From assembly GCA_002239105.1 (NCBI GenBank), contig MPNQ01000001.1, positions 124,001 through 188,000 of the forward strand: DNA of 64,000 nt, read 5' to 3'. The DNA comes from a marine group bacterium Sva0996 bin134. GTDB taxonomy: Bacteria > Actinomycetota > Acidimicrobiia > Acidimicrobiales > Bin134. The notes beneath the pieces were generated by a model. The model was not told the origin of the DNA. It worked only from the letters and a program-made list of their open reading frames with translations, and made no database searches. Made by a program: the position numbers and the translations under genes. Below, one piece after another: positions 11,585-46,348 of the stretch (positions are counted from its first letter, which is position 1; each line of letters opens with the position of its first letter).

Positions 11585-11610
11585 GTATGGTCATTCCTCT
11601 GAGCGGAACA
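11585..11610. promoter_or_regulatory. Shared operator motif, site B, over the iclR start
   Basis: The right part (ATTCC, TCTGAGC, GGAACA) matches site D at 27985-28010 in 17 of 18 bases; the left GRAAC half is degenerate. It covers the ATG at 11587 of the IclR-family gene. That placement suggests autoregulation, or that translation really starts at the GTG at 11629. Confidence 0.6.
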
Positions 11611-14026: not shown

Positions 14027-14848
14027 CTAGCGATCCCGCGGCACCCGATTAAGCACTGATCTAGCCCAGCGCATCACCGCCTCGTCGATGAACTCCCCAC
14101 CGATCACCGCGACCGCCCGACCGTCGGCCTTCGCCTCCTCGAAGGCGGCTACCAGCCCCTCAGCCCGGGCGATCTCGTCATCTGACGGGGTGAAGGCCGC
14201 ATTCGCCGCGGCCACCTGCTTGGGGTGGATCACCGACCGGCCGCCGAAGCCGTGGCGGCGAAGCGACTCGCTGGTGGCCGCCAGCCCCGCGTCGTCGTCG
14301 AGGTTGGTGAACACCGGCCCACAGGGCGCTTCGAGTCCCTCTCCCGCCGATGCCACCACCACCCGAGTGCGAATCGGCCACATCTCCAGGGCCTCGGGTG
14401 AGGGCTCCATGCCCAAGTCGGCGGCCAAATCGGCTTCGCCCAAGGCCAGGCGCTCCACTTCGGGCACAGCCGCGATCTCGTAGATCTGGGCCACCCCTAC
14501 CGCCGACTCGATGAGCGCGGTTACCGGGCAGCCGCCGAAGTCGGCCGAGCAGGCGGCCGCATCGGCCTTGGGCACCACCACACCCGCAAAGCCCACGCCA
14601 TCGGCAACCAATGACCGCACCAGCTCGGCGTCTTCGCCCACCAGGTCGGGGCGGTTGTTGATCCGCACCCAGGCCGGCACGCCGGGGTTGGCCCGGAGCC
14701 ACTGGCCCACCGCCTCCCGTGCGTCTGCCTTGGCCGCTTCGCCCACCGCGTCCTCAAGATCGCAGATTATGGCGTCGGCCCCTGATTTCAGCGCTTTGTC
14801 GAAGCGGTCGGGGCGGTCTCCGGGGACATAAAGCGTGGTGCGGCTCAT
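14027..14848 (-). CDS. HpcH/HpaI aldolase, citrate lyase beta (CitE)-like
   Basis: 273 residues from ATG 14848 (MSRTTLYVPGDRPDRFDKAL). Motifs are DAIICDLEDAVGEAAKADAR, WVRINNRPDL, VVPKAD, TALIESAVGV and GFGGRSVIHPKQVAAAN. CitE-like proteins cleave acyl-CoA thioesters such as malyl-CoA or citramalyl-CoA into acetyl-CoA and a keto acid. With two CoA-transferases, an MmgE/PrpD protein and maleate-type enzymes in the cluster, a citramalyl-CoA-type lyase is plausible. Motif site C lies 58 bp upstream, shared with the divergent RCCR-like operon. Confidence 0.9.
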   Translation of the reverse strand: MSRTTLYVPGDRPDRFDKALKSGADAIICDLEDAVGEAAKADAREAVGQWLRANPGVPAWVRINNRPDLVGEDAELVRSLVADGVGFAGVVVPKADAAACSADFGGCPVTALIESAVGVAQIYEIAAVPEVERLALGEADLAADLGMEPSPEALEMWPIRTRVVVASAGEGLEAPCGPVFTNLDDDAGLAATSESLRRHGFGGRSVIHPKQVAAANAAFTPSDDEIARAEGLVAAFEEAKADGRAVAVIGGEFIDEAVMRWARSVLNRVPRDR

Positions 14849-14905
14849 CGGATTATCGGCTCCTCGCGGCTGGTTGACACTGGCTCGGCCTACTGCCAGA
14901 CTAAC

Positions 14906-14931
14906 GAAACGTCGTTCCGCTAACCGGAACA
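14906..14931. promoter_or_regulatory. Shared 26-bp operator motif, site C
   Basis: The sequence reads GAAAC, GTC, GTTCC, 7 nt, GGAACA, a full match to the consensus. It is the only conspicuous element in the 111-bp divergent gap between the CitE-like gene (start 14848) and the RCCR-like gene (start 14960). Confidence 0.75.
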
Positions 14932-14959
14932 GCGTGCCACTGACCACACCGGAGCACCA

Positions 14960-15772
14960 ATGCGCGAGACGCTGAAGGGCGTCCAAGACATCTTCGACGA
15001 GCGGGGCCCCACAGACGCCACGGCCACGTTCAACCGGCTGTGGTCTATCACCGAGGAGCTCATGGCCAAGATCGAGGCCCGGTTCGAGTTGACCCGCGAC
15101 CCGAGCACTGAGGATTTGGAGTCGTACCGGGGAGAGGCCGAGTACCCCGCCGGGCGGCTGGCCGGCTACACCGACCCGGAGATCGACTGGCTCGTCCACT
15201 CGTGGATCGGCAACCCTCCGCTGGGGTTCACCAACATGCACGTCACCGCCTGGCTGGGCCCCCACATCGATGTGCCCCATCTGGGCGTCGCCTGGGGAAC
15301 CCTTCCCGATCTGTGGTTCTACATCGACTTCAACCCCCGCTCCGATCTCATGCTCGACACCGAATCGCTCGACAAATACTGGGGGCCGCTCAACGAGGAG
15401 TTCTTGGAGCTTCGGGCCGACGAGGGGCTGGCGCCGTTCACTTCCCGGGCGCTGTACGTCCGCCAGGCGCTGAGCGAGGTGGCCATCTGCTTCACCACGC
15501 CGGAGGTCACCTACAACGAGGCCCGACTGGACCAGGTCAGCGATCTGGCCCACCGGCGGGTAGACCAGTGGCTGGCGTGGGTGGACGAGGCCGAGCCGGT
15601 GCCGGCTGAGCGCCGGAAAGAACTGGCGGACGCTGACCTGACCCGGCGGCGCAACATCGCCGAGAGAGATCCGGCCAATGTCATGGGGGTGCGTTTCTTC
15701 GGCGAGGAGATGACCGACCGTTTGGTGCGCGCCCTGTGGGGCGGCGACCGGGTGCTGCCCCGACCGATTTGA
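14960..15772 (+). CDS. Red chlorophyll catabolite reductase (RCCR)-like protein
   Basis: 270 residues. From memory of plant RCCR (ACD2), the order of conserved blocks matches: DWLVHSWIG near residue 75, a PHL block, DLWFYIDFNPRSDLMLD then LDKYWGPLNEE, a SRALYVRQALSE block, and a C-terminal RRRNIAERD...FFGEEMTDRLVRAL block like plant RRKSIEED...FGEEV..R+V.AI. Plant RCCR reduces an open-chain tetrapyrrole using ferredoxin and belongs to the bilin-reductase fold. It is first gene of an operon with a Rieske oxygenase, the same two-step order as plant pheophorbide oxygenase and RCCR. Enzyme activity is inference. Start ATG 14960, with CGGAG upstream. Confidence 0.72.
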   Translation: MRETLKGVQDIFDERGPTDATATFNRLWSITEELMAKIEARFELTRDPSTEDLESYRGEAEYPAGRLAGYTDPEIDWLVHSWIGNPPLGFTNMHVTAWLGPHIDVPHLGVAWGTLPDLWFYIDFNPRSDLMLDTESLDKYWGPLNEEFLELRADEGLAPFTSRALYVRQALSEVAICFTTPEVTYNEARLDQVSDLAHRRVDQWLAWVDEAEPVPAERRKELADADLTRRRNIAERDPANVMGVRFFGEEMTDRLVRALWGGDRVLPRPI

Positions 15773-15782
15773 GGGAGATCCC

Positions 15783-15830
15783 ATGTTGATCAAGAACTCG
15801 CATCGAATGAAGGGAAGGCCCGCATGTTGA
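15783..15830 (+). CDS. 15-codon leader ORF duplicating the Rieske start
   Basis: ATG at 15783, behind a strong GAGGGAG ribosome site, encodes MLIKNSHRMKGRPAC and stops at a TGA at 15828. That TGA lies inside ATGTTGA at the start of the Rieske gene (15824). The first 16 nt, CATGTTGATCAAGAAC, recur exactly at the true start. The leader is too short to be a functional protein. Either it couples Rieske translation to ribosomes finishing the leader, or it is a scar of a small duplication. Confidence 0.5.
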   Translation: MLIKNSHRMKGRPAC

Positions 15831-16963
15831 TCAAGAACCAGTGGTACGCCGTGGAATTCGGTCAGTGGGTGACCGACCAGCCGGTGCTGGCCCGGGTCCA
15901 CGGCCACGACCTGGTGCTGTGGCGCAGCCCCAACGGCACGGTAAACGCCCAGTCCGATCTATGCGTGCACCGGGGCGGCTCGCTGGCCGGCGGCTCGGTG
16001 GTGGGCGACTGCGTGCAGTGCCCCTACCACGGCTGGCGCTATGGCGCCGATGGGGCCTGCGTAGAGATTCCGGCCAACCGACAGGGCCTGCCCATTCCCA
16101 AGAAAGCCCGGGTCGACGCCTATCCCTGCATCGAGCGCTACGGCTTCGTGTGGGTGTTCTTGGGCGATTTGGCGCCCGAGTATCGGCCTCCGGTGCCGGA
16201 ATTGGAAGGACTCGACGAGCACACCGAGGCCAGGGCCGAGGGATACCGAGCGGTCGTCGGCGAGTTCACCTGGCAGGCCAACTACGACCGGGTGCTGGAG
16301 AATGCGGTGGACATTGCCCACACCCCCTTCGTGCACTCCGGCTCGTTCGGCAACAAGGACGAGCCCGAGATCCAAGACTTCGACCTCGACGAAACCCGCG
16401 TCAACGGCCACTTGGCGTCGGTCACCGCCACCGTGGAACTCGAACCGCCCCGCCCATCGGGCATGTGGCGGTTCATCTCCAAGAAGGACCGCCCGCCGGT
16501 GAGCACCACCACCGGGTTCTACCCGCCCAACGTCTCGATGCTCATCGTGCGGCTGCCCATGGGCGAGATCCGCATCTTCACCGCCGCGGTGCCCCGCGAC
16601 GAGCACGTCACCGTCTCTAAGTTCTGCATGCTGCGCACGTTCTTCACCGGGGGCTGGGCCGACAAGAACTCCTACGAGCGCACCATCAAGATCTTCAAGG
16701 AAGACCAGCCGACCGTTGAGGGCCAGCGCCCGGAGCTGCTGCCGTTCGACCTGTCAGCCGAGCTCCACGTCAAGTCCGACTCCATTCAGCTGGCCTACCG
16801 CCGCTGGCGCCAAGAGCAGATCGACAAGGGCTGGGCGCTCGAGACCCCGTCGGACGAGGAGTCCATGCGGGCCGCGGCGGTGATTCCCTCGCCGGCGCGC
16901 GCCGGCGACCCCGAGCTGGCCAACGCCTGGGTGTTCCCCACCGTGGGGGAGGTTGGTTCATGA
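15824..16963 (+). CDS. Rieske non-heme iron oxygenase, PAO/VanA-like
   Basis: 379 residues. The Rieske [2Fe-2S] ligands are Cys47, His49, Cys66 and His69 (CVHRGG, then CPYHGW). The mononuclear iron ligands are Asp163, His166 and His171 in ENAVDIAHTPFVHSGSFGN. That block resembles the single-component oxygenase branch containing VanA, chlorophyllide a oxygenase and pheophorbide a oxygenase. No C-terminal membrane anchor or CxxC is seen, unlike plant PAO. There is no adjacent reductase; electrons must come from elsewhere. Its place between an RCCR-like and a bilin-reductase-like gene suggests ring opening or hydroxylation of a tetrapyrrole. Its TGA overlaps the next ATG. Confidence 0.85.
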   Translation: MLIKNQWYAVEFGQWVTDQPVLARVHGHDLVLWRSPNGTVNAQSDLCVHRGGSLAGGSVVGDCVQCPYHGWRYGADGACVEIPANRQGLPIPKKARVDAYPCIERYGFVWVFLGDLAPEYRPPVPELEGLDEHTEARAEGYRAVVGEFTWQANYDRVLENAVDIAHTPFVHSGSFGNKDEPEIQDFDLDETRVNGHLASVTATVELEPPRPSGMWRFISKKDRPPVSTTTGFYPPNVSMLIVRLPMGEIRIFTAAVPRDEHVTVSKFCMLRTFFTGGWADKNSYERTIKIFKEDQPTVEGQRPELLPFDLSAELHVKSDSIQLAYRRWRQEQIDKGWALETPSDEESMRAAAVIPSPARAGDPELANAWVFPTVGEVGS

Positions 16964-17694
16964 GCCTGTCGGCCGATCTCTGCGTCGGCACGGTGGACGC
17001 CATCGCCGACCGCTTGGAGCTCGATGAGACCGTGAACACCCCGCTGGCCTCGGTTATGGATGGCTCGCCGGTGGGTGCCCATCGGGTGCTGGCCCGCGAC
17101 GGGGTGGCGGAACTGGTGTACGTGGGCATGACGGTGGAGGCCTTCGGGCTGGACAGCCACATGTGCTTCGCCTTCACGCCCGCGGCCAGCCCGGTGCCCC
17201 ACTTCACCGTGGACTCGGTGCTGGCCGGCCCTCACTATGCCTTCCACCTGGATCTGATCCCCCGGGTGGACCCGGGCGCCAACCTGGCCTACATCGACTA
17301 TTGCTACGGCCCCCTCACCGAGGTCCACGACGAGACCATGCAGATCGAGGGACTCACTCCCGCCCACCTTTCGCCCCGCCAGTGGCAGCTCATGTCGGCG
17401 TGGATGTTGGCCCACCGGGCCGACGAGGACGGCTTTCGGTCGGTGTTCGGTGCGGTGGCCTCCTACCGCGACCACTGGCTGGGCCTAGTGGTCGACGGCG
17501 TGCCCGAGTATGCCACCGGAGGGGCCACCGCCGAGCAACTGGCCGATCGCGACGCCCGCAACCGTGCTGCCATCTTCAATCCCGAGGTCGATCCCGTGTG
17601 GGCCCGAGTCGACCAACTGCTCGGCCCCGAGACGAGCGCCGACATCCAGGCCAGCTTGAAGACAGCGGCCCGTTCCCCGTCCACCCTGCAATGA
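16960..17694 (+). CDS. Ferredoxin-dependent bilin reductase/RCCR-fold protein (tentative)
   Basis: 244 residues, coupled to the Rieske gene by ATGA. The middle part, SPVPHFTVDSVLAGPHYAFH then LDLIPRVDPGANLAYID, resembles the central strand block of bilin reductases (PcyA/HY2 fold), where a P-x-F and an FH-x-DL pattern occur. The end, DRDARNRAAIFNPEVDPVWA, recalls their C-terminal N-x-R-x3-F helix. The similarity is weak, and I cannot identify the catalytic Asp/His. If correct, the operon holds two proteins of the open-chain-tetrapyrrole reductase fold. Otherwise it should be listed as an unknown oxidoreductase partner. Confidence 0.5.
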   Translation: MSLSADLCVGTVDAIADRLELDETVNTPLASVMDGSPVGAHRVLARDGVAELVYVGMTVEAFGLDSHMCFAFTPAASPVPHFTVDSVLAGPHYAFHLDLIPRVDPGANLAYIDYCYGPLTEVHDETMQIEGLTPAHLSPRQWQLMSAWMLAHRADEDGFRSVFGAVASYRDHWLGLVVDGVPEYATGGATAEQLADRDARNRAAIFNPEVDPVWARVDQLLGPETSADIQASLKTAARSPSTLQ

Positions 17695-17704
17695 TCGGAT
17701 CACC

Positions 17705-18646
17705 ATGAGCGATACTCAAGCCTCCGAGTGGCAGCAGCGCATCACCGGCGAGTGGTACGGCCTGCCGTCGGTATTCGACGCCGAGGGGAACCACACCGGG
17801 TTCAACAAGGTCAGCCGGGCCAGCGTGTTCGCCGACGGCAAGGTCACCTACTGGATGCAGTGCAACTTCATGAACACCGGCCCGCTTCGCAACCGGTTCG
17901 AGATCAAGGACTTTGAGTTCGGCGTGGACGACCGGGGCAACGACCGCATCTACCAGGGACCCGACTTCTACGGTGCCGGCCACCCCTATGGCTCGCTGGT
18001 GGACTCGCACTACTACGCGCCGGGGTGGCGGGCCGACCTCAACACCATGAACCAGATTCTGCCCGACGGCGTGACCCAGGTGTACTCGTCGCTGCTCTAT
18101 GAGGGCCCCACCATCTTCGCCGTATTCAACGGGGTGTATTTGAACGCCCACGACTACGACACCAACTCCGACACCAAGGCGTGGATCGACGCCCACATCG
18201 AGTCGGAGCGGGAGTTGGCCGCATGGCCCCACACCGTGCCCGACCGCACCGGGGGCACCTGGACCGGAGAGTGCGAGGTGTTCGGCGCCGACCAACAGCC
18301 AAAGGGAACCGTGAGCGTGCGCCTGCGCCACGACCCCATCGACCTGGTGCGCGCCACCCACACTCTGGAGCTATCCGGGGCCATCGACTACTCCCACACC
18401 TACATCCGCACCCGCTCCCACGGCAACCGCTACACCTACGACGGCCCCGACCTCTGGGGCAACGCCATCGCCTACGGCCGCGCCCTCTACACCTCCCAGC
18501 ACCACGTCAGCGAAGCATTCAAAGTCAAAGGCCGCGAGTTCATCATCGACCGCGACTACACCCTGGCCGTAGCCTGGAAGCTCCATTCCGGCGACCGCAT
18601 GACCGACATAGTCTTCGGCCCCCTCACCTTCACCCCCGACGCATAA
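17705..18646 (+). CDS. Two-domain lipocalin-like (DUF3598-type) protein
   Basis: 313 residues made of two similar halves, each beginning G-x-W-x-G (ITGEWYGLPSVFDAEGN; GGTWTGECEVFGAD) and carrying an aromatic-Y-x-GP block (RIYQGPDFYG; YTYDGPDLWG). No signal peptide or membrane segment is present. The pattern resembles calycin/lipocalin barrels of the DUF3598 type. Clear paralogues lie at 25127 and 25783, at the far side of the inserted island. Barrels of this kind often hold hydrophobic ligands; in cyanobacteria, CpcS/CpcT lipocalins hold bilins. It is last gene of the RCCR-Rieske operon, so ligand handling for linear tetrapyrroles is a natural guess. Confidence 0.6.
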   Translation: MSDTQASEWQQRITGEWYGLPSVFDAEGNHTGFNKVSRASVFADGKVTYWMQCNFMNTGPLRNRFEIKDFEFGVDDRGNDRIYQGPDFYGAGHPYGSLVDSHYYAPGWRADLNTMNQILPDGVTQVYSSLLYEGPTIFAVFNGVYLNAHDYDTNSDTKAWIDAHIESERELAAWPHTVPDRTGGTWTGECEVFGADQQPKGTVSVRLRHDPIDLVRATHTLELSGAIDYSHTYIRTRSHGNRYTYDGPDLWGNAIAYGRALYTSQHHVSEAFKVKGREFIIDRDYTLAVAWKLHSGDRMTDIVFGPLTFTPDA

Positions 18647-18710
18647 CACCGAAACCTGAGCCTTCCTGTAATTCCGGGGAAGATCAGAACGAGGACTACG
18701 TTGGAAAGTT

Positions 18711-21700
18711 GTGGGTAACCTGCGGTATCACCCCGTTGTAGGGGATGCGGACCGAGAAATAGACACGGTGCGGCCGGACCGGCTGCTAATCATTGGCGAA
18801 CGTGTGCCGGACTCCGTCTCGGTTGCTGCGGCTGCACGTCGGCGCGATGTGGCCGAAGTTCAGCTGCCGACGGGCGTGTACATATTCGATGACGGGACGC
18901 GAAACGAGGTCATGGTCGTCACCGATGGCACAGCCGCGGCGACTTCAGCCAACATAGATTGGGCTGAGGAGTCGCATCCGCTTCGCTCTGCGTATGACTG
19001 GTTGGGTGTCTGGTGGGATGACGCGGAGATAGTTCCCCAACCGCTGTTCGACATCGACTCGTCTGCGGTAATGCGAGGCGCTGGCCAAGAGGTGGTCGTG
19101 CGCCGACGAGACTTCGATCGAGGCAAGTGGTGGTACCAGGTCCGCAGCGATGGTCGCACCTTCACAGCCTCTGAGGCCGGCCTCCAGTTTCCTGAGATCG
19201 ATGATAATCCATACTTGTGGGTCACTCAGCCGCCTTCGCCCACAGATCGCTTCGCGGCCACCCTCACGCGGGCGAGGCTCCGAGAGCAACTCACCGACAC
19301 GGTCTATTCGTTTCGCGCAACCAAGACGATCTTCCGCGCCTATCAGTTCCGTCCTGTCATCCGACTCCTGGAAACCGGCGAACTTCGGCTCCTGATCGCT
19401 GATGAGGTCGGCCTTGGAAAAACCATCGAAGCCGGGCTTGTTTGGACCGAGCTTGATGCACGAAAGCAGGCGGACCGAGTTCTCGTTGTCTGCCCTTCGA
19501 TGCTTGTTCCGAAATGGCGTGCGGAGATGCGGGAACGCTTCGACTACGAGATGGTTGAACTTGATCGAACTCAACTCGATGAGATGTTGGAGCGGGTCTA
19601 CGAAGACCGATTGCCACAGCGGTTCGCGGGCATTTGCAGTCTCGAACGCTTACGGGTCTGGAATGGGCTCGAAGGATTCAACGAACTTGCCCCACGTTTC
19701 GACCTTGTGATCGTCGATGAAGCGCATGTATTCCGCAATTCGGAGACGAGGAGCCACGCCCTCGGCGTGCTGTTGTCCGAGTGGGCAGACGCCTTGATCT
19801 TCTTGTCGGCAACTCCGTTGAACCTGGGCAACGACGACTTGTTCAGCCTGTTGCAGCTTCTCGCTCCTGGGGAGTTCGACAACCATCATGTCCTTGAACA
19901 GCGCCTTGAGCCCAATGCCGTGCTGCACGAAGTGAGCGCCAGCTTCTTTGACCAGGACATGACCAATGCCGACCGGCTTCGCAAGTTGAAGGCTATCGAG
20001 TCGCTGGACTTTGGCCCCGCAGTTGCAGGGCGGCCCGAATACCGAGAGCTGACGTCGCTACTTGAAAGCGATGCGCTGTTGCCCGCACAGATCGCCCAGG
20101 CAAAGCGTCTGATCGCCCAGCTCCACGCGCTGTCCGCTGTTGTGACTCGAACCCGCAAAGTCGAAGTGCAAGAGAAGAAGGCAGTGAGGGAGGCAATTCC
20201 AATTCCCGTGACGATGACGGATGCAGAGGCCGAGTTCTACAACGCATTTGAACGGTGGCAATTTGATAGGGCCGAGGAATTGGGCCTGCCAGCGGGATTT
20301 GTGACCCAGATGCCGCGTCGACTTGCCAGTACATGCCTTCCGGCAGCCAGAGATCAGGTACTGAGTTGGTGGGAGGAGAACTGGGACGAGGAACTAGATG
20401 AAATTGACGAGGACGCCTTTTGGGACTTGACGGAACCCCCAGCTGAGGTTATTGAACTGGCACGGAGTCTGGGCGATGTAGACACCAAATTCGACGCCTT
20501 TGTAAAGGCGATGCGCCCCATCATCGATGGAGGACGTCGGGCGCTCGTGTTCACCTTCTCTCGCCGAGCGCTTCAGTATCTCAGCGACCGGATGAGTGAG
20601 GAATTCCGTATTGCAGTCATGCATGGCGGAGTCGACCGGGATACTCGGCACGAGATCATGCGGCGATTCCGCGACCATGACTTCGACGTCCTGCTGGCAA
20701 GTCGCGTAGCGAGCGAGGGCCTCGACTTCGAGTTCTGCTCGGCGGTAGTCAACTACGACCTCCCATGGAATCCGATGGAAGTCGAGCAACGGATCGGCCG
20801 TGTCGACCGCTTCGGCCAGACCGAGGAGAAGATCCTCGTATTGAACTTTCACACCCCCGGGACAATCGAGACAGACATTATCGAGCGGGTTCATCAGCGT
20901 ATCGGCGTCTTCAAGGACTCAATCGGCGAACTTGAACCGATTCTCCAGTCGAAGATGAGCGACCTTCGCCGCGACATGTTCGACTTCTCGCTGTCCGAAG
21001 AGGAGCGCACACGCAGGTTCGAAGAAACCCTGGCGGCAATTGAAGGGCAACGCCTGGCAATCGACGACGTCGAAGCGGCATCCTCCTACTTGTCGTCAAC
21101 CGACTCTGCGGAAATCGACGGTCTTGAGGAAGACCTCGAGTCGACTGGGAGGTATATCGGCCAGCCTGAGCTGGTCCTCCTGCTGCGCGATTGGGCGGCA
21201 TACACACCTGGGGCCTACTGCGAGGTCGACGAAAGCGGCACCCTTCTGATCTTTCGCGGAACCCCGGCAATGGAACCCCAGCTCCTGAGTCTCCAAACAG
21301 CAGGCGAGCGATCGCGAACAGAAATAGACCAACTGGCCAAAGCCATGCAGGACGAGCGAGAACTAGTGCTTTGCCTCGACCCGGAGCGCGCTCGAAAGTC
21401 CGGACACCAACTCCTCTCGGCGAACAGTCCGATGGTGCGAGCAGCTCTCCGGGTACCGGGGTCAGTTCAACCTCGATTCGGCCACCTAAGGGTTCAAAGC
21501 AGCGCCGTAGCACCGGGCTCGTACCTCGTCCTCGTGGCTGTGGCCCGATGGGTAGGGCTTCGACCCTCGGTCGAGTTCTGGACGGCAGCAGTCGACCTAG
21601 AAACCTGCGCCGTGACGAACCAGGACGTGGGATCGACCATCTTGGCAGGACTTGCAGAGGCTCGTTTGGGAGAGCAAGAAGTGAGTCCAGAAGTGGACCT

Positions 21701-24055: not shown

Positions 24056-24363
24056 TCGCGCTAGTTGGAGGTCCACCAACCTCGATGTAGAGGAAGGTAG
24101 ACGCGGAAAAGGAAGATGGAGTGACAGTGTGTTGGTAGAACTAAAGAGTGCTTTGGGTGATCTCCAGTCCCGGTTCTCGGACTCGTTGTCAATCACCTGG
24201 CCGGGGCCATTGACCGAGCACCGACAACGATCGCTCGTGGTAGCCGAGGTATTCGGCGAAATCGGTACTGGTGGCTCCGTCCAAGACTGACGGAGGTCGT
24301 TGATAGTCGGGGTCTCTCGTGAGGGAAAGATCCTTTGGATGGGAGAGAGCAGCTTTGCAACAG
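24056..24363. other. Gap inside the island, no clear gene
   Basis: 308 bp between the convergent HelD-like and NYN genes. A 78-codon minus-strand frame (24189-24425) overlaps the NYN 3' end but has no recognisable features. No convincing hairpin-plus-T-run terminator was seen. It may be decayed coding DNA or the island's 3' flank. Confidence 0.4.
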
Positions 24364-24996
24364 CTATGACGAATAGGGGAAGTAGTCGGTGTCGTCGCGT
24401 ATGAGGTCGAACTGACTCTTGTCAAGACAATGGTTCCAGATATTGCGACCGGGGAGCCTCAGCTGGCCGCGGGGAGACTTCGGTATCCACCAGGTGGCGG
24501 TCTCGACACGCTTTCCCACATGCACTGCGTCCTCCAATGCAGGACCGAAATCGGAATCAGCAGAGGCGATGATCGCGACGTCATAGGCGTTGTTTCGAGC
24601 GCCTACGGAGATGTCCAAGGCCATCATCACATCCACTCCCTTTTCCTTCGCTATCCAATCGGATTCATGGCCCGGCTCTGAGGCCCGGTGGTACTTCAGA
24701 GGTCGAGTGCGGACCGTGACGCCAGGCATCTGTCCCCAGACTGCCACCTGTCGGTCAAATGACCGGCTGAGTTTCACCCCACTGCGGCTGTCGGGCTGGC
24801 CGCGGTACACCCGGACTCCGGCCAGAACGCGATGAGGATCCTTGATCCTGCCGAGATCGCAGAGCAGCTCGCCGAGGCGGAGAGGATGAATGCTGCCTAG
24901 TGGTGATGGGGCTTCGTCCGAAGGGAAGAACAGGTCGCGGGCACTGTGGTAGACGTTCTGGTAGTCGATGAAAACGACAACTCGGGTGTCAGGCAT
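24364..24996 (-). CDS. NYN-domain (PIN-like) nuclease
   Basis: 210 residues from ATG 24996 (MPDTRVVVFIDYQNVYHSAR); the frame is open to 25101, but upstream residues are not family-like. Acidic active-site positions are the Asp in FIDYQNVY, the Asp pair region in KGVDVMMALDISVG and the SADSDF motif (VAIIASADSDFGPALEDA). NYN/LabA proteins are metal-dependent RNases. It converges on the HelD-like gene and shares the island's lower G+C. With two RNA-polymerase-type ATPases it would add RNA cleavage to the module, if the three genes belong together, which is inferred only from position and composition. Confidence 0.85.
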   Translation of the reverse strand: MPDTRVVVFIDYQNVYHSARDLFFPSDEAPSPLGSIHPLRLGELLCDLGRIKDPHRVLAGVRVYRGQPDSRSGVKLSRSFDRQVAVWGQMPGVTVRTRPLKYHRASEPGHESDWIAKEKGVDVMMALDISVGARNNAYDVAIIASADSDFGPALEDAVHVGKRVETATWWIPKSPRGQLRLPGRNIWNHCLDKSQFDLIRDDTDYFPYSS

Positions 24997-25126
24997 CGCA
25001 ACATAGGCCTTTAAACGATAAACCCCCGCCATGCCCTGCGGAGCAGGCCAGACGGGGAAGATTGGCATCACCCTATCTACAAATGCGGCTCCTTTCAACA
25101 CTCATGTGGAAATTGCATCCCGGTGC

Positions 25127-25786
25127 CTAGCCCACAGTCACCAAGACTGAGCGGCTTCCATCTTCCACGTCTTCGGTGATCTCGATGCTGGATGCTCCGA
25201 TGGGGTCGCGCATGGCCCAGAGGCGGCGGTGGTGCGATGGGGAGGGTTGGTCGGCGGCTACCAGCATGGGGCCGACGCAGCGGCGTAGGGGCCATTGATC
25301 GCCCGCCTTGGGTGGTGGTGCTGTCAGGTCGAGGCGGGGCTCCTCACCGGAGGCTTCGGGGACGGCTACTCCCACGATGTCGGCTACCGACCGGCCGGCC
25401 AGGGAGAAGAAACCGCCGGTGAGCTGGCGGTCGGGGGCCACTAGGACGGAGTAGGACTCGAACTCGTAGCCGAAGCGGGGCCAGAGCCCTTGTCCGGTGA
25501 GGGCACCGGGCTGCCACAGGGTGCCGAAGCCCACAACATCGGGGCCGAGATAGCGACGTTGGGTCCCGTCCACCTCTAGCTCGAAAACCCACTCGCCCGA
25601 GAAGGCGGCCATGGGGTGACCGGCTAGTTGGGGCGATGGGTGGCACCGTTGGGTTACCAGCAGTCGGCCCTCTCCAGCTGGCTCCACAATCCGGCGCTGG
25701 GCCACCTCGCCGCGAAACGTGCCGTCGGGGTCGTAGACGTACTCGTTGATCAGCCAGTCGCCGCCGAAGCGGTCTTTCTTGCTCAT
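25127..25786 (-). CDS. Lipocalin-like (DUF3598-type) protein, paralogue 2
   Basis: 219 residues from ATG 25786, which overlaps the stop of the upstream paralogue (ATGA). It begins FGGDWLINEYVYDPDGTFRG, carries the family block RRYLGPDVVGFGT and later WPRFGYEFESYSVLV. It is similar in layout to the N-terminal half of the proteins at 17705 and 25783. Last gene of a four-gene minus-strand operon that starts at motif site D. No catalytic residues are identifiable. Ligand binding or isomerisation of a pathway intermediate is possible. Confidence 0.58.
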   Translation of the reverse strand: MSKKDRFGGDWLINEYVYDPDGTFRGEVAQRRIVEPAGEGRLLVTQRCHPSPQLAGHPMAAFSGEWVFELEVDGTQRRYLGPDVVGFGTLWQPGALTGQGLWPRFGYEFESYSVLVAPDRQLTGGFFSLAGRSVADIVGVAVPEASGEEPRLDLTAPPPKAGDQWPLRRCVGPMLVAADQPSPSHHRRLWAMRDPIGASSIEITEDVEDGSRSVLVTVG

Positions 25787-26685
25787 GCCGGTTCGAAGGC
25801 CAAGGCTCCGTAGGCCGCTCCCAGTCGCTGCTCGCCCCGATACCAGATGTGGAGCACCGCCTTCATGCTGCCGTCCCGCGACACCACTTCCCGCCGCCAC
25901 ACTCGGAGCCCTCCTGAGAGGAGGTGGAGCTGGCCGCTGAAGCCCCGGCCGCCACTGAGGCTGCCGCTGCCCATCAGATCACCCTCCGGTGTCCACGCCG
26001 TCCAGCCGTCCGACAACAGGGGGAACGACAGCCCCGATGAGTAGTCAGCCCCTGATAGTTCCACTTCCCAAGAGCCGTCTTTAGCAGCAACCGCCTCCGC
26101 ATAGTCATCTGCGCCGGTCGGTGTGTACTTGGCGTCGAGGCGGTGCAGTTGGCCCGACCAGCGGCCGGGCCGGAGCAACAAGAGCTCACCTCGGCCTGCG
26201 GTTGGGTCGTCTCGCAACACCTGGGCATCCATCTCCGCCACAGGGGGAGGCACGGGATCCGACGGGTCGACCTGGCGCTGGTATTCCCCCACCACCGCCC
26301 ATTGGAGCCGATCACCCCGGCTGAGCAAGGCCAGCGAGAGCTGGCGGGTGCCGTCGGGCAGCACCATCAGAAAGAAGCGCTGCGAAAGCCCCAGGTCGGG
26401 CCAGTAGTTGTGGGCGGCGACCAGGCCGTCGCCCAGCGCCTCGGCATAGCCGATGTTGAGGGGCCCCTCGTAGGTGCGATGCGAGCCGTGGTCGGCAATG
26501 GTGTAGACCCCCGACAGGGAGAACGGCCCGTCGAACTCGACCTCCACCGTCACCCGTCCGGCCTGGTCGTCGGCCTTCACCGATCGGGTGTCGCGCCCTA
26601 TTCCGGCAAAGCGACCGTTTGCGTCGTAGACCTCGGCCGCGCCGATCCATTCTCCAACTCCTTGGGAGAACGACCCTTGGCTCAC
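25783..26685 (-). CDS. Two-domain lipocalin-like protein, paralogue 3
   Basis: 300 residues with the same two-half layout as the protein at 17705: VGEWIGAAEVYDANGRFAG and HRTYEGPLNIGYAEALGDGL in the first half, PGRWSGQLHRLDAK and VELSGADYSSGLSF in the second, ending AAYGALAFEPA. The 17705 protein ends DIVFGPLTFTPDA in the same position. The two are evidently paralogues although their operons lie 7 kb apart and face each other. It is coupled to both neighbours by 4-nt overlaps. No signal peptide. Confidence 0.6.
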   Translation of the reverse strand: MSQGSFSQGVGEWIGAAEVYDANGRFAGIGRDTRSVKADDQAGRVTVEVEFDGPFSLSGVYTIADHGSHRTYEGPLNIGYAEALGDGLVAAHNYWPDLGLSQRFFLMVLPDGTRQLSLALLSRGDRLQWAVVGEYQRQVDPSDPVPPPVAEMDAQVLRDDPTAGRGELLLLRPGRWSGQLHRLDAKYTPTGADDYAEAVAAKDGSWEVELSGADYSSGLSFPLLSDGWTAWTPEGDLMGSGSLSGGRGFSGQLHLLSGGLRVWRREVVSRDGSMKAVLHIWYRGEQRLGAAYGALAFEPA

Positions 26686-27500
26686 ATCCGGACCAGGCGC
26701 ACTGTCTGGGTGTCCACCGGGGTGGCGGCCAGCACCGGGCCGAGGTCGGCACCGGGAGGCTGGGGGGCCAGATACCGGCCCTCGGTGGCCAGCTCAAGCC
26801 CGTCTTCGGCAAACGGGTAGGGATCCAGCCCGTAGACCCCTCCGGGACGCTCGACCACCGAGATGGTCACGTCGTCGCCCACCGCCCGGGGCACGTTGGG
26901 GAAGTCGGAGGCGCCCCGCTCGCCCTCAGGGGCCAAGTGGAAGTACAGGGAGATGGTGTCGAAGAACTGGAGCTGCTTGTAGGCGTGGAACAGGTATTCG
27001 TCGGCGGCGTGGTCGGGATCGTCGACGGCCAACCGCTCCTTCAGGCGGCGCTGGCGGCCTTCCTCGTTGCCCAGCATGGCGTCGACCTCGGGACGCAGCT
27101 CGTCGGGGATCACGTCCAAGAAGATCTTGTCGCTCAACCCGTATCGCCCCCGGTACAGGCCATAGGTGTGCATCGAAGAGATGATGCCGCTGAACGGATG
27201 ATGGTCCTCGTTGAATGCCGGTGATCCCGCCGATGTGGTCACAATCTGGGGCAGCGGGGTGGCGGTCAGGTTGTAGGGCAGCCCGGTGTCGGGGTTCTGA
27301 GGAGCCTGGGCGTCGAGGGCGGCCCAGCCCTGGTCGTGGTGGTCGACGATAAACTGCATCGGCTCGGCTGGCGCCAGCCCGTCGAACTCGTCGTTGCCGA
27401 AGTTGGCGGCCAGCGACCCGGCGAAGGCGGTGTGCTGGTGCATGGCGATCACGAAGTGGGGGGCGTCGGCGTTCCCTCCGGGGGCGCTTTGGACGATCAT
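26682..27500 (-). CDS. DUF3891 family protein
   Basis: 272 residues from ATG 27500 (MIVQSAPGG). HFVIAMHQHTAFAGSLAANFG and FIVDHHDQGWAALDAQAPQN match the DUF3891 pattern, in which an H-x-x-H region and a D-x-x-GW segment probably form an HD-like all-helical site. A later block is KIFLDVIPDE, then KQLQFFDTISLYFHLAP. Function is unknown in the family. It sits between two lipocalin-like genes with 4-nt overlaps on each side, so it very likely works in the same step. Confidence 0.7.
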   Translation of the reverse strand: MIVQSAPGGNADAPHFVIAMHQHTAFAGSLAANFGNDEFDGLAPAEPMQFIVDHHDQGWAALDAQAPQNPDTGLPYNLTATPLPQIVTTSAGSPAFNEDHHPFSGIISSMHTYGLYRGRYGLSDKIFLDVIPDELRPEVDAMLGNEEGRQRRLKERLAVDDPDHAADEYLFHAYKQLQFFDTISLYFHLAPEGERGASDFPNVPRAVGDDVTISVVERPGGVYGLDPYPFAEDGLELATEGRYLAPQPPGADLGPVLAATPVDTQTVRLVRM

Positions 27501-27979
27501 GGCCGCTGCACCCGAGTGAAGTCTTGAATCTGGAAAAGGTTGGTGGCGCCGTCGCGCACCTTGTGGGTGATGATGCGGCGGGTGTCGGGGTCCAAGAAGT
27601 AGTGGTTGTTGTAGACGATGTTGTTGCTCACCCGGCTGTCGATGGTGAAGACGTAGTTGTACGGCGTGAGCTCGGCGCCTTCGAGGCTGAGCTGGTCGCT
27701 GTCGGCGAAGCACCGCTTGCCGTCAACCCCGATTGGGGTGTCGAAGATGGTCTCGCCCACGCCGTAGAGGTTCTCGAAGTGCTCGTGCAGGTGCCAGGTG
27801 TTGTCGTCGAGCCAGTACACGTCCATGTGAACGGCGCTGGATTCGAGGAAATCGCCTTGAGGGCTGAAGCTCTTGCACAGCCCCTCCCAGTGGCCCATGA
27901 AGCACTGATAAGGACGAGACGAGGCCGGGCCGTAGTTCTTGGTGTCGCTCACCCTGGAAATCGTAGAGTGTGGAGACAT
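27497..27979 (-). CDS. Small lipocalin-like (DUF3598-type) protein
   Basis: About 160 residues from ATG 27979; a GTG at 27952 (VSDTKNYGPASSRPYQCFMG) is equally likely, since the ATG lies only 6 bp from motif site D. The single barrel-like domain starts GHWEGLCKSFSPQGDFLE and continues WLDDNTWHLHEHFENLYG. It resembles the N-terminal half of DUF3598-type proteins. First gene of the operon 27497, 26682, 25783, 25127, divergent from the chlorophyllase-like hydrolase. Confidence 0.62.
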   Translation of the reverse strand: MSPHSTISRVSDTKNYGPASSRPYQCFMGHWEGLCKSFSPQGDFLESSAVHMDVYWLDDNTWHLHEHFENLYGVGETIFDTPIGVDGKRCFADSDQLSLEGAELTPYNYVFTIDSRVSNNIVYNNHYFLDPDTRRIITHKVRDGATNLFQIQDFTRVQRP

Positions 27980-27984
27980 CAAAT

Positions 27985-28010
27985 GAAACTGTGTTCCTCT
28001 GAGCGGAACA
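27985..28010. promoter_or_regulatory. Shared 26-bp operator motif, site D
   Basis: The sequence reads GAAAC, TGT, GTTCC, TCTGAGC, GGAACA, a full match to the consensus. It lies in the divergent gap between the lipocalin-like operon and the alpha/beta hydrolase (start 28032), so it could control both directions. Confidence 0.75.
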
Positions 28011-28031
28011 TCTTGTGAGGAGAAGCACCGC

Positions 28032-28991
28032 ATGATAGTCCGGGGACTGCATTTCTCTTTTGCCGCCCACCAGGACGCTGCGCTGGCCACGCTGTACTAC
28101 CCGGGTGACGACCAGCGGCTGGGGGAGGCCCGACTGACCGGGCAGGTACCGGCCCTGGCGACCGATGCCCCGTGGCCGGTGGTTGTGCTCGCTCCCGGCA
28201 TAAACGTTGCTCCCGACGGCTACCGCTGGTTGGCTCATCGGCTCGTGCCCTCCGGGCTGTGCGTGGTGACCTATGCGGCCATCGGCTCGCTGGGACCGGC
28301 CGGGCGGGGCATCACCCCGGGCCTCGACTTGGCTGCCCTGGCCCCCGACACCATCGGCACCCGTCCATCGGCCACCGCACTCGGCCCTCTGCTGGCGGCC
28401 CTGGCCGAGATGTCCGGCGCCGACGACACTGCTGTAGCCGGGCACCTGGACCTTTCCCGCGTGGTGGTGGGCGGCCATTCGGCGGGGGGCGCGATGGCGC
28501 TGCACAACAGCGATCCGGGGTGGGTGTCGGGCTTGCAGGCAGTGTTCGCCTACGCCGCCCACACCATGGTTGCCACCACATTGGGCCATGGTGAGGCCAC
28601 GGTCGCACCAGTGCCGGCCAAGGTGCCGGTGATGCTGCTGGGCGGGGCCGACGACGGGGTAATCGCCGCCAGCCGCGACCGCTATCGAGGCGATGAAGGC
28701 ATCCATGACCCTGTTCGCCGGACGTTCGCAGAGGCCATCGACCGCCAAGACGGGGACTCGTGGCTGGTCGAGCTGGCCGATGCGGGCCATTTCGCCATCT
28801 GTCGGCCGGTGGACGCCACCAGCGGCCGCTCCTTTCTGGAGCCGGGCGCCGCCGGGGCCAACTCGGGCGTCGGGGAACTGCTCGGCGACCTCATTGCCGC
28901 GTTCACCGCCGACTCTTTGGGGCGACCCGCCGCTCTCAGCCTGGAGCGCCTAGTCGGGCACCAATTGGTCCAGCACTGGGATCGGCGCTAG
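28032..28991 (+). CDS. Alpha/beta hydrolase, chlorophyllase-like
   Basis: 319 residues with GAGGAGAAG upstream of ATG 28032. VVVLAPGINVAPDGYRWLAH, LDLSRVVVGGHSAGGAMAL (nucleophile Ser150), LGGADDGV (Asp near 205) and ELADAGHFAICR (His near 252) give a complete triad. The GHSxGG elbow preceded by a hydrophobic VVVGG strand, and the whole layout, resemble chlorophyllase and related PET-hydrolase-type esterases. In plants chlorophyllase or pheophytinase removes phytol before ring opening. That role fits the neighbours but is inferred. No signal peptide is evident, so it probably acts in the cytoplasm. Confidence 0.7.
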   Translation: MIVRGLHFSFAAHQDAALATLYYPGDDQRLGEARLTGQVPALATDAPWPVVVLAPGINVAPDGYRWLAHRLVPSGLCVVTYAAIGSLGPAGRGITPGLDLAALAPDTIGTRPSATALGPLLAALAEMSGADDTAVAGHLDLSRVVVGGHSAGGAMALHNSDPGWVSGLQAVFAYAAHTMVATTLGHGEATVAPVPAKVPVMLLGGADDGVIAASRDRYRGDEGIHDPVRRTFAEAIDRQDGDSWLVELADAGHFAICRPVDATSGRSFLEPGAAGANSGVGELLGDLIAAFTADSLGRPAALSLERLVGHQLVQHWDRR

Positions 28992-29039
28992 CCCGTCGCG
29001 CCAATGGGCATGGCGAGAGTGCGGACACAAGCCGGCCGG

Positions 29040-29420
29040 CTACGCGGCCTCGGCGGAGGGCGGATCGATCTTCAACACGACCTCGATTCGGGCCAAGCGT
29101 TCGCCGTGGTCCTTGAAGCCATCGTAGACCTCCTTGCGAAGATCGGTCAGATGGCCGGTGAACTTGTCGGTGAGCCTGACTTCAAGGTCGCTGATCTGGC
29201 CGGTGAACTTGTCGGTGAGCCTGACTTCAAGGTCGCTGATCTGGCCGGTGAACTTGGTGTCCAAGTTGTGGATTGAGGCGTTGACTTGCTCGAAACCGGA
29301 TTCGATCTTGGCCTGGTTGTTACGCTGCACGGCCAAGATGTGGTACATGAGCGCGCCGATCACCGACGCGATCAAGATGGCAGATCCACCGATTGTCGAA
29401 CTCAGAATCGCAGTGTTCAT
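29040..29420 (-). CDS. Small N-anchored coiled-coil membrane protein
   Basis: 126 residues from ATG 29420, preceded by GAGGGAG at a good distance; the open frame extends to 29504 without support. One membrane segment (TAILSSTIGGSAILIASVIG) is followed by a heptad-rich coiled coil containing two exact copies of a 15-residue unit (GQISDLEVRLTDKFT). The tail reads RIEVVLKIDPPSAEAA. No enzyme motif. A similar design, with the anchor at the other end, is seen at 56792. Function unknown; a structural or scaffold role is possible. Confidence 0.7.
   Translation of the reverse strand: MNTAILSSTIGGSAILIASVIGALMYHILAVQRNNQAKIESGFEQVNASIHNLDTKFTGQISDLEVRLTDKFTGQISDLEVRLTDKFTGHLTDLRKEVYDGFKDHGERLARIEVVLKIDPPSAEAA
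29153..29242 (-). repeat. Two perfect 45-bp tandem copies in the coiled-coil gene
   Basis: Copies at 29153-29197 and 29198-29242 are identical, with a further 14-nt partial copy after them. Each encodes 15 residues, slightly more than two heptads, so copy-number change alters stalk length without breaking the frame. Confidence 0.92.
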
Positions 29421-29548
29421 TCGAACTCCCTCAAAGGGGTTTGAAGAGGGGGAAGTGAACAAACACACCCTACCAGGCTGGCCAGCTATTTCAACTGGGC
29501 CCACGCTGAGGTGAGCACCGTCGTAGCATCTGGGAAGAGGGGGACAAA

Positions 29549-30355
29549 GTGACCAAGCGCATCGTCATCACCGGTAGCACAAGGGGTATCGGCAACGGGT
29601 TGGCCCGCGAGTTCTTGAAACGGAGATGCCAAGTGGCTGTGAGCGGCCGCTCGCCCGGCCAGGTACACGAGGTGGTGGCCGATCTGGGCCAGTACTACGG
29701 CGAGTCCAAGGTCTGCGGCACGGCGTGCGATGTCACCGACCCTGAACAGCTCCAGGAGCTGTGGGACAGCGCGGCCAACACCTTCGGCGGCGTCGACGTA
29801 TGGATCAACAACGCGGGCATCAGCATCGGCCGCCAGCCGCTGTGGGAGCAGCGCGACCACGACCTGGCCGCGCTGGTCGCTACCAACCTCACCGGCGCGC
29901 TGCTGGCCAGCAAGACGGCCATTGCCAACATGGTGCGCCAAGGCCACGGCCAGGTTTGGAACACCGAGGGATTCGGCTCCGACGGGGCCACTCAGGCCGG
30001 CATGGCCGCCTACGGGGCCACCAAGCGGGCAGTGCGCTACTTGCAGAGGGCCCTGGGCAAGGACACCGCCGACACTCCCGTGCAGGTGTGCACCGTGTCA
30101 CCGGGCATCGTGGTGACCGACCTGCTCACCGGCGACTACGACCTCACCTCTGAGCAGTGGGAGAAGTCCAAGAAGATCTTCAACATCCTGGGCGACCACG
30201 TCCACACCGTCACCCCCTGGCTGGCCGACCACATCCTGGCCGCCGACAAGTCGGGCGCCCGAGTGGTGTGGCTCACCCGGCGCAAGGCCTTCGCCCGGTT
30301 CATGACCGCCTCGTTCCGACGGCGTGATCTGTTCACTCAGGTGGAAGGGGCGTGA
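29549..30355 (+). CDS. Short-chain dehydrogenase, chlorophyll b reductase (NYC1/NOL)-like
   Basis: 268 residues from GTG 29549. NAD(P) loop TGSTRGIG (8-15), Asn-Asn-Ala-Gly at 87-90 in DVWINNAG, Asn113 in TNLTGALL, and Tyr155/Lys159 in AAYGATKRAV. Features recalled from plant NYC1/NOL recur: ITGSTRG followed by LAREFL, TACDVTDPEQL, WINNAGISIGRQPL, a GQVWNTEGFGSDG block (plant H+FNMDGAGSGG), SPGIVVTDLL and a late KKIFNIL segment. NYC1/NOL reduce the 7-formyl group of chlorophyll b. The match is stronger than to generic SDRs, but activity is inferred. It has no copy of the 26-bp motif upstream and converges on the transporter operon with a 23-bp overlap. Confidence 0.72.
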   Translation: MTKRIVITGSTRGIGNGLAREFLKRRCQVAVSGRSPGQVHEVVADLGQYYGESKVCGTACDVTDPEQLQELWDSAANTFGGVDVWINNAGISIGRQPLWEQRDHDLAALVATNLTGALLASKTAIANMVRQGHGQVWNTEGFGSDGATQAGMAAYGATKRAVRYLQRALGKDTADTPVQVCTVSPGIVVTDLLTGDYDLTSEQWEKSKKIFNILGDHVHTVTPWLADHILAADKSGARVVWLTRRKAFARFMTASFRRRDLFTQVEGA

Positions 30356-36586: not shown

Positions 36587-36597
36587 GGATCCCTCCT

Positions 36598-36645
36598 GGT
36601 CATGGGGATTGCGGGTCATGGGGATTGCGGGTCATGGGGATTGCG
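36598..36645. repeat. Three perfect 16-bp tandem repeats at a stop/start junction
   Basis: Three identical copies of GGTCATGGGGATTGCG. On the minus strand each copy carries ATGA, so the stop of the small membrane protein gene and a potential start codon are repeated three times just before livK. They occupy the space before the real livK ribosome site. Confidence 0.9.
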
Positions 36646-38228: not shown

Positions 38229-38302
38229 TGCCCGCTCTCTTTTTCTTGGCGATGGCCGACCGGAGATCACGTTGGCCCTCCGCCACCTTGTACCCGGTCA
38301 CA

Positions 38303-46346: not shown

Positions 46347-46348
46347 AA

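Follow-up and report, generated by a model that had tools for sequence, protein, structure and literature searches.

Introduction

Chlorophyll is broken down every year in very large amounts, mostly outside living plants. In the plant itself the breakdown follows the PAO/phyllobilin pathway, which sequence comprises NYC1/NOL, PPH/CLH, PAO, and RCCR and ends in phyllobilins that are stored. In the searchable literature we found neither a bacterial RCCR or chlorophyll-degradation cluster nor a bacterial gene set mineralising chlorophyll. Prokaryotic RCCR homologues have been reported in Nostoc and Anabaena, two of them adjacent in Nostoc punctiforme (Thomas et al., 2009, PMC2716323), and Candidatus Schekmanbacteria is likewise on record with sequences resembling RCCR (PMC10151467); in the accessible portions of those papers, these figure as sequences or phylogenetic outgroups, with no cluster of Rieske, SDR, lipocalin, and imidase genes described for them. 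The pre-PcyA bilin reductases of heterotrophic bacteria, which enzymes have the FDBR fold and make phytobilins, count heme oxygenase, V4R, and bilin-binding globins among their cluster partners (Rockwell et al., 2023, PMC10151467). The degradation of cyclic imides and of maleamate/maleate, for its part, involves dihydropyrimidinase-like, isochorismatase-like, and EutA/racemase-superfamily enzymes.

The gene cluster analyzed here lies in a window of 64,000 nt—the whole stretch of DNA under study—to which all coordinates refer, each followed by the strand. It shares with the plant pathway an RCCR-family reductase, a Rieske oxygenase, and a candidate esterase, along with an SDR that may resemble NYC1/NOL, but differs in that the genes are clustered, that the Rieske protein is of the VanA_C type, with no PAO domain or Staygreen found, and that a second reductase-fold protein along with lipocalin-like proteins are added; moreover, whereas plants store the product, the downstream genes of the bacterium would degrade it fully. 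The RCCR-family protein is a prokaryotic member like those cited above. Unlike the pre-PcyA clusters, the present one displayed no heme oxygenase, V4R, or bilin-binding globins, and its imide- and maleamate-type enzymes, of putative substrates, are encoded alongside a Rieske oxygenase and reductases of the tetrapyrrole type. On balance, we lean towards the view that the cluster is a catabolic regulon for an exogenous tetrapyrrole pigment, which substrate would most likely be chlorophyll-derived.

Extent and conservation of the cluster

The five genes at 14960, 15824, 16960, 28032, and 29549, from which an earlier note had deduced a bacterial counterpart of the plant pathway, were all found at those positions; the interval that it had delimited (14027-30355) was nevertheless too short, since the cluster begins near 3.8 kb and reaches roughly 41.2 kb, and most of the pathway had been overlooked, namely the lipocalins, the imidase, amidase, CoA-transferase, and lyase genes, the flavin oxygenases, the transporter, and the IclR regulon. 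Within these limits, genes for SNF2-like helicase, UvrD-like, and NYN proteins, recognized through Pfam, occupy a segment of low GC (18711-25101); because that insertion is missing from the relatives, we excluded those genes from the pathway.

We examined 71 RCCR loci drawn from Actinomycetota, Chloroflexi, and Gammaproteobacteria. Within approximately 10 kb, the Rieske gene was present in 66 of the 71, homologues of 17705 and 16960 in 67 and 62, the hydrolase in 55, and the SDR in 52. The nitrilase accompanied 55/71, the 40407 homologue 39/71, the FAD monooxygenase 33/71, and the acyl-CoA-dehydrogenase-like flavoprotein 30/71. Since the first five of these partners lie near RCCR in most of the loci, though of 396 genomes of the phylum just 3 carry an RCCR gene, the grouping cannot be attributed to chance, which explanation was also rejected by shared presence and absence: one set of 9 genomes has RCCR, the lipocalin, and the nitrilase, and all three were missing from every other relative searched. 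The divergence of the partners, without tree correction, was correlated with that of RCCR (r 0.63-0.88). The core genes lie together in Nocardia, Actinoplanes, Nonomuraea, Streptosporangium, Gammaproteobacteria, and Chloroflexi; a plasmid collection searched for RCCR contained none.

Photosynthetic reaction centres were encoded in none of the 26 cluster genomes, so that self-made chlorophyll was rejected as the substrate, and the cluster, its core recurring over the 71 loci, proved to be conserved in non-photosynthetic bacteria. In addition, a canonical heme oxygenase was found neither in this genome nor in 17 of those 26, and a bilin arising from heme by that route is therefore improbable. 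Non-photosynthetic soil and marine bacteria thus carry a co-inherited gene set, whose relatives of the plant chlorophyll-breakdown enzymes point to an undescribed bacterial route for the use of chlorophyll or of a similar pigment.

Reductases and lipocalin-like proteins

The protein of 14960-15772 (plus) matched the Pfam profile PF06405 (RCC_reductase) at 53.2 bits (E 3e-14; cut-off 24.9), which significant match upheld its RCCR-like character. Its family profile matched the Arabidopsis RCCR structures at 1.2e-21 and the bilin reductases at 1e-7 or weaker, and we accordingly regard it, on these sequence comparisons, as an RCCR homologue that is nearer to RCCR than to the bilin reductases. In plant RCCR, Glu154 and Asp291 constitute an acidic active-site pair; in our alignment the Asp291 position is occupied by an invariant Asp237 in the bacterial family, and that of Glu154 by Ala111, the Glu not being retained.

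The product of 16960-17694 (plus), previously considered bilin-reductase-like, had no match among the Pfam families, but was related to the RCCR family by profile-profile comparison (98.5%). In its predicted structure (pLDDT 94.6) the 42 best PDB matches were all RCCR, PcyA, PebA, PebB, PebS, or HY2 (E 2e-10 to 2e-5), so that, according to the model, this is a second protein with the RCCR/bilin-reductase (alpha/beta/alpha FDBR) fold. RCCR and the bilin reductases have open-chain tetrapyrroles as substrates.

The neighboring gene (17705-18646, plus) encodes a protein with no sequence match in Pfam, whose model (pLDDT 93.3) most resembled BFA1 (5yvf) and DUF3598 (2o62), at E 5e-9 to 9e-8, and more weakly the phycobiliprotein lyase CpeS (E 0.012); we thus predict a double-lipocalin (two-barrel) protein similar to DUF3598. 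Comparison with the relatives revealed a paralog of 25-30% identity (25783-26685, minus) and a homologue of both (25127-25786, minus). These are followed by a DUF3891 protein with a His/Asp-rich conserved core (26682-27500, minus; PF13030, 108 bits) and by a small protein, kept in the relatives, that weakly resembles DUF3598_N (27497-27979, minus; E 0.085, under the cut-off).

Rieske oxygenase, hydrolase, and SDR

The protein of 15824-16963 (plus) is a Rieske non-heme iron oxygenase (PF00355 plus VanA_C, PF19112), in whose family alignment the Rieske cluster ligands C47-H49-C66-H69 and the mononuclear-iron residues H166/H171 are conserved, in agreement with the ligand sets noted earlier. A PAO/CAO counterpart, as had also been proposed, it is not: PF08417, the C-terminal domain of PAO/CAO/TIC55, was absent from this protein and from the entire genome, VanA_C standing in its place, and the nearest solved relatives were SxtT, SxtDIOX, and NdmA. 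Likewise, the putative chlorophyllase (28032-28991, plus) fell outside that family, having no match to the profile PF07224 and being nearer to PET/polyester hydrolases, its best solved relatives, than to chlorophyllase; under the cut-off for every Pfam family, with weak PETase/abhydrolase matches only, it is an alpha/beta hydrolase with a conserved Ser150/Asp208/His253 triad and a candidate esterase. The protein of 29549-30355 (plus) was confirmed through Pfam as an SDR, and its full-length similarity to NYC1/NOL (36-37% identity over some 250 residues, 154 and 146 bits) exceeded that to the best solved SDR (87 bits), which similarity we treat as a lead because the plant sequences compared were approximate ones. 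No ferredoxin or reductase gene was recognized within the cluster.

The lack of a PAO-family Rieske, the failure to find Staygreen, and the proximity of the hydrolase to PET hydrolases all count against our preferred reading, as do the Ala at the Glu154 position, albeit with Asp291 retained, and the non-recognition of a ferredoxin or reductase gene; many of the plant-like steps, moreover, could act on other tetrapyrroles. The main alternative, to which we assign a low though appreciable probability, is that other linear tetrapyrroles—biliverdin, bilirubin/urobilin, or the phycobilins of dead cyanobacteria—are imported ready-made, the Rieske enzyme then hydroxylating or fragmenting the bilin with no opening of a macrocycle. 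The bilin-reductase fold of both reductases would suit that proposal, as would the presence of CpeS among the weaker structural matches of the lipocalin-like proteins and the non-detection of PAO and of the Staygreen Mg-dechelatase, although the Staygreen search (PF12638, no match in 30 genomes) had no working positive control. The membership of 14960 in the RCCR family is, however, stronger than in the FDBR; the SDR, as a lead, resembles chlorophyll b reductase; and heme oxygenase is missing in most of the genomes, so that the bilins would need an outside source. Thus, of the earlier interpretation, the RCCR, the fold of 16960, the SDR similarity (as a lead), and the conserved cluster stood, while the PAO-type Rieske and the chlorophyllase did not. 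Of the outcomes that the earlier note had named as refuting it, the want of a significant RCCR or bilin-reductase match did not materialize, but the Rieske protein did group away from PAO. The substrate would be a tetrapyrrole, with a chlorophyll-derived one rather than another as our preference.

Putative downstream enzymes and transport

The left part of the cluster begins with an isochorismatase-family amidase that is colinear in the relatives, a candidate maleamate-type half-amidase (3806-4438, minus; PF00857, 127 bits), followed by a family III CoA-transferase conserved with the cluster (4455-5651, minus; PF02515, 420 bits), an HMG-CoA-lyase-like C-C lyase (5663-6580, plus; PF00682, and NF004283 at 343 bits, over the cut-off), and a dihydropyrimidinase/allantoinase-like amidohydrolase, a candidate cyclic imidase (6607-8118, minus; PF01979, and TIGR03178 at 221 bits, under the equivalog cut-off). 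There follow an MmgE/PrpD-family dehydratase (8064-9470, minus; PF03972/PF19305), a putative cyclase (9467-10291, minus; PF04199), a second family III CoA-transferase (10288-11478, minus; PF02515, 397 bits), a nitrilase-superfamily amidase (12418-14025, plus; PF00795, 144 bits), whose triad Glu44/Lys116/Cys149 is conserved in about 60 of 62 sequences, and a CitE/RipC-like C-C lyase (14027-14848, minus; PF03328, and NF038242 at 156 bits, under the cut-off).

On the right, a Liv-type ABC transporter is encoded by a permease plus ATPase (30333-33104, minus; PF02653, PF00005), an ATPase fusion (33101-35104, minus; PF00005), and a periplasmic binding protein (35114-36619, minus; PF13458). Beyond it lie an acyl-CoA-dehydrogenase-like flavoprotein (36933-38270, minus; PF02770/02771), a presumably secreted protein with a weak match to the neocarzinostatin fold (38303-39061, minus; PF00960, E 1e-4, just under the cut-off), an FAD monooxygenase (39192-40403, minus; PF01494, 175 bits), and an arylmalonate decarboxylase/EutA-like member of the Asp/Glu racemase superfamily (40407-41159, minus; PF17645, 61 bits). 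This last protein scored 69 bits against TIGR02990, under the cut-off, and its conserved Cys pattern matched no known mechanism; maleate isomerase is a candidate role. By their families, the genes at 3.8-14.8 and 39-41 kb fit a sequence from imide through half-amide and dicarboxylate to CoA thioester and C-C cleavage.

Sets of Rieske, FAD monooxygenase, CoA-transferase, and lyase genes are common in many degradation clusters, and the RCCR fold, Glu154 not being retained, might have been recruited to a non-tetrapyrrole such as an aromatic polyketide or terpenoid within a generic aromatic-degradation cluster; we nonetheless deem this unlikely, since the pair of proteins with the RCCR/FDBR fold, when taken together with the lipocalins of DUF3598 type and the NYC1/NOL-like SDR, suggests a single class of substrate. 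The biosynthesis of a pigment or natural product of bilin or pyrrole type, to which the distant similarity of the flavoprotein 36933 to prodigiosin and prolyl-PCP dehydrogenases and the neocarzinostatin-fold protein might allude, is very improbable, there being no synthases or carrier proteins among the annotated genes, in which hydrolases, CoA-transferases, and C-C lyases dominate together with an amino-acid-type uptake transporter.

Proposed pathway

For the catabolism of a chlorophyll-derived pigment, we would envisage that the Liv-type transporter imports the pigment or its fragments, that the SDR acts as a reductase on a carbonyl side group, after the model of NYC1/NOL with chlorophyll b, and that the esterase (28032) releases the ester side chain, while the Rieske oxygenase would open or hydroxylate the macrocycle using O2. 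The RCCR-family protein and 16960 may then carry out two-electron reductions of the open-chain product, whose hydrophobic or phototoxic intermediates the lipocalin-like proteins might bind. The flavin oxygenases would cleave the bilin into one-ring pieces, e.g., 3,4-substituted maleimides, which products could be conveyed to central metabolism by the imidase-, half-amidase-, and nitrilase-type enzymes, the EutA/maleate-isomerase-like protein, the CoA-transferases, and the CitE/HMG-CoA-type lyases.

A bolder version, which we advance tentatively and with appreciably less confidence, is that of a complete bacterial pathway leading from chlorophyll or pheophorbide to central metabolism by way of an open-chain intermediate resembling RCC and of monopyrrole imides, spread horizontally among heterotrophs, and with an RCCR (and possibly NYC1/NOL) lineage akin to the one from which the plant enzymes came. 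The cluster bears in any event on the origin of plant RCCR, which question was unsettled in 2009 (PMC2716323), and it names candidate genes in culturable genera: Nocardia, Actinoplanes, Nonomuraea, Streptosporangium, and Pseudohalioglobus.

Probable joint regulation of the gene set

An operator-like palindrome, GAAAC-N3-GTTCC-N7-GGAAC, was located in the CitE/RCCR divergent promoter (14906-14930), with further operator-like palindromes in the DUF3598/hydrolase divergent promoter (27985-28009), 81 bases upstream of the 38303 gene (39134-39158), and upstream of 40407 (41190-41206); a near-operator occurs at 11489, just upstream of the second CoA-transferase gene. A stricter form, GTTCCG-N4-CGGAAC, gave chance-level matches only, the right spacing being N7. 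Exact GTTCC-N7-GGAAC cores numbered four in the window as against 0.11 expected, each one preceding a transcription unit of the cluster, and every one of the 20 Acidimicrobiia loci examined retains the palindrome, indicating that the gene set is probably under joint control in the group studied here. The candidate regulator is an IclR-family protein of uncertain start (11587-12408, plus; PF01614, 153 bits, and PF09339), which may bind those sites and thereby govern the set, and the cluster offers an apparent regulatory site open to direct testing.

RCCR-Family Protein and Its Fold Relative

The product of the gene at 14960–15772 belongs to the red chlorophyll catabolite reductase (RCCR) family (PF06405, 53.2 bits; cut-off, 24.9), and a profile of 27 members matched the plant RCCR structures at 1.2e-21, the nearest bilin reductase scoring 1e-7. 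The protein encoded at 16960–17694 had no match in the Pfam search; its profile nevertheless aligned with that of the RCCR family (hhalign, 98.5%), and the 42 best structure matches of its predicted model (pLDDT 94.6) were all RCCR, PebA, HY2, PcyA, PebB, or PebS. From these profile and model matches we therefore assign to the cluster two proteins of predicted RCCR/bilin-reductase fold, two genes apart. The earlier note had recognized both an RCCR-like and a bilin-reductase-like protein here, and was right on each count; all the genes that it named do lie where it had placed them.

In the alignment, Asp291 of Arabidopsis RCCR corresponds to Asp237 of the bacterial family, which residue is invariant in 27 sequences, while a nearly invariant alanine (Ala111) occupies the Glu154 position; the 16960 family has an invariant acidic residue there, Asp85. 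Both Glu154 and Asp291 are reportedly important in the plant enzyme, according to the Sugishima papers, with the chain and precursor numberings presumably offset by 43.

The neighboring gene at 17705 encodes a two-barrel lipocalin-like protein (model pLDDT 93.3) whose best PDB matches were BFA1 and the DUF3598 structure 2o62 (E 5e-9 to 9e-8), with a weak match to the phycobiliprotein lyase CpeS (E 0.012). A paralog lies at 25783 and another homolog at 25127; the product of 27497 has a weak likeness to DUF3598_N, and that of 26682 is a DUF3891 protein.

Rieske Protein, Hydrolase, and SDR

The Rieske protein (15824) is of the VanA_C type (PF19112, 96 bits), retains the cluster ligands and the mononuclear-iron histidines, and has SxtDIOX/SxtT and the caffeine N-demethylases as its nearest solved structures. 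Since no PaO domain was found in this protein or elsewhere in the genome, its proposed identity as PAO is ruled out. The hydrolase (28032), which retains Ser-Asp-His, fell below the cut-off of every Pfam family and was closest to PET/polyester hydrolases, so that it is not a chlorophyllase by family. The SDR (29549) scored under every NCBIfam equivalog cut-off listed, and reached at most 87 bits against any solved SDR. Against unverified reference sequences it gave 154 bits with NYC1, 146 with NOL, and 74 with Escherichia coli FabG, the identity to the two plant proteins being 36–37% over the full length, C-terminal part included; this similarity makes a NYC1/NOL-like enzyme a strong lead. Of the analogy to the plant pathway, then, the RCCR and perhaps NYC1/NOL remain, whereas PAO and chlorophyllase, as families, do not.

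Conservation and Regulation

A genome scan yielded 77 RCCR loci, in actinobacteria (Acidimicrobiia, Nocardia, Actinoplanes, Nonomuraea, Streptosporangium, Streptomyces, Nocardioides, and Mumia), Chloroflexi, and Gammaproteobacteria. Among the 71 loci used for neighbor counts (L029–L099; redundant entries kept, some contigs truncated), RCCR was accompanied by a 17705 homolog in 67, the Rieske gene in 66, a 16960 homolog in 62, the nitrilase (12418) and the hydrolase in 55 each, the SDR in 52, the EutA-like gene (40407) in 39, CitE (14027) in 35, the FAD monooxygenase (39192) in 33, and the flavoprotein (36933) in 30. Nocardia and its relatives have the order nitrilase–RCCR–hydrolase–Rieske–16960–17705–SDR. 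In a Chloroflexi metagenome-assembled genome labelled Thermoflexus, the RCCR cluster contains two Rieske genes (L085:3052–6874).

RCCR is rare: of 396 genomes from the phylum, 3 have PF06405. RCCR, the 17705 family, and the nitrilase occupy the same nine genomes, this one among them, the first two being absent from the 90 other relatives searched and the nitrilase from 32 others; the SDR is in eight of those nine and in no other relative searched. Pairwise distances of the core proteins correlated with those of RCCR (r 0.63–0.88, uncorrected for species relatedness). The cluster is real and conserved, and very probably functions as a unit.

Four copies of the palindrome GTTCC-N7-GGAAC are present in the window, where 0.11 would be expected (0 of 100 shuffles), at 14914, 27993, 39142, and 41190, each site adjoining the starts of cluster genes and three having the extended form GAAAC-N3-GTTCC-N7-GGAAC; one-mismatch sites are found only at the CoA-transferase and IclR starts. 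Each of the 20 Acidimicrobiia loci inspected has the palindrome upstream of RCCR; at Nocardia-type loci it was not generally detected.

Flanking Genes and Putative Substrate

The left flank encodes an isochorismatase-family amidase, two family III CoA-transferases, an HMG-CoA-lyase-like enzyme, a dihydropyrimidinase/allantoinase-like amidohydrolase, MmgE/PrpD and a putative cyclase, an IclR regulator (11587), a nitrilase-superfamily amidase with Glu-Lys-Cys kept, and a CitE/RipC-like lyase; the right flank, a Liv-type ABC transporter with its binding protein, an acyl-CoA-dehydrogenase-like flavoprotein, a weakly matching neocarzinostatin-fold protein, an FAD monooxygenase, and an EutA/arylmalonate-decarboxylase-like protein. 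The lipocalin-like and DUF3891 proteins, left-flank catabolic genes, IclR regulator, transporter, flavin oxygenases, neocarzinostatin-fold protein, and EutA-like protein are additions to the earlier note. Neocarzinostatin-fold proteins (38303–39061 here; L054:6296–7129) occur in or beside RCCR clusters in two distantly related groups of actinobacteria, and are possibly small-molecule binders.

The substrates of RCCR and FDBR enzymes are open-chain tetrapyrroles. No canonical heme oxygenase was found in this genome or in 17 of the 26 cluster genomes (controls behaving as expected), nor photosynthetic reaction centers in any of the 26; an open-chain pigment would therefore be taken up from outside or produced by the cluster, whose most regular O2-using enzyme is the Rieske protein. 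Oxidative degradation of tetrapyrroles gives 3,4-substituted maleimides, which could pass through a cyclic imidase, a half-amidase, an isomerase, a CoA-transferase, and a C–C lyase, a sequence that would match the flanking families, from whose membership we infer these steps. Tetrapyrrole catabolism is our best reading of the cluster; side groups of the chlorophyll b type would suit the NYC1/NOL-like SDR, and chlorophyll itself is a plausible, though unproven, substrate.

Lake actinobacterial clusters have hydantoinase A/B in place of the dihydropyrimidinase-like gene; gammaproteobacterial ones have a PEP-mutase/isocitrate-lyase-type gene and an MFS transporter plus, at single loci, a rubredoxin–rubredoxin reductase gene or a TonB receptor. 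The Paraferrimonas fusion of rubredoxin to its reductase (L086:10887–12521), which adjoins RCCR, is a candidate electron donor.

Relation to Described Systems

RCCR homologs are recorded in Anabaena and, two side by side, in Nostoc, with the source of the plant RCCR left open (Thomas et al., 2009, PMC2716323), and Schekmanbacteria sequences fall in the RCCR outgroup (Rockwell et al., 2023, PMC10151467). The heterotroph FDBR clusters described in the latter contain heme oxygenase, V4R, and globin genes, from which type the present cluster differs. We found no bacterial RCCR–Rieske cluster or chlorophyll-mineralizing gene set in the open-license literature, although an earlier description may exist elsewhere.

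Insertion and Neighborhood

The window is part of a 3.7-Mb metagenome-assembled genome whose near relatives are named Acidimicrobiia/Acidimicrobiales. In related genomes the gene order between the isochorismatase gene and the ABC transporter is mostly preserved. The lower-GC helicase/UvrD/NYN genes at 18711–25101 are absent there, where 17705 directly adjoins 25127, and are therefore an insertion in this genome. The segment, which splits the RCCR cluster in this genome only, contains an SNF2-like helicase, a UvrD-like helicase, and an NYN nuclease, and is possibly a defense-type island. Just right of the cluster, 41337–49679 encodes a 1669-aa exonuclease/DinG/RecQ-like helicase fusion, another helicase resembling UvrD, and a protein with a Fic domain. 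Beside the left end lies a serpin (2128–3756; PF00079, 247 bits), found in some relatives, whose long linker is made of Pro/Thr-rich repeats, and a cytochrome P450 (PF00067) is encoded at 51009–52307, near a tRNA-Gly gene.
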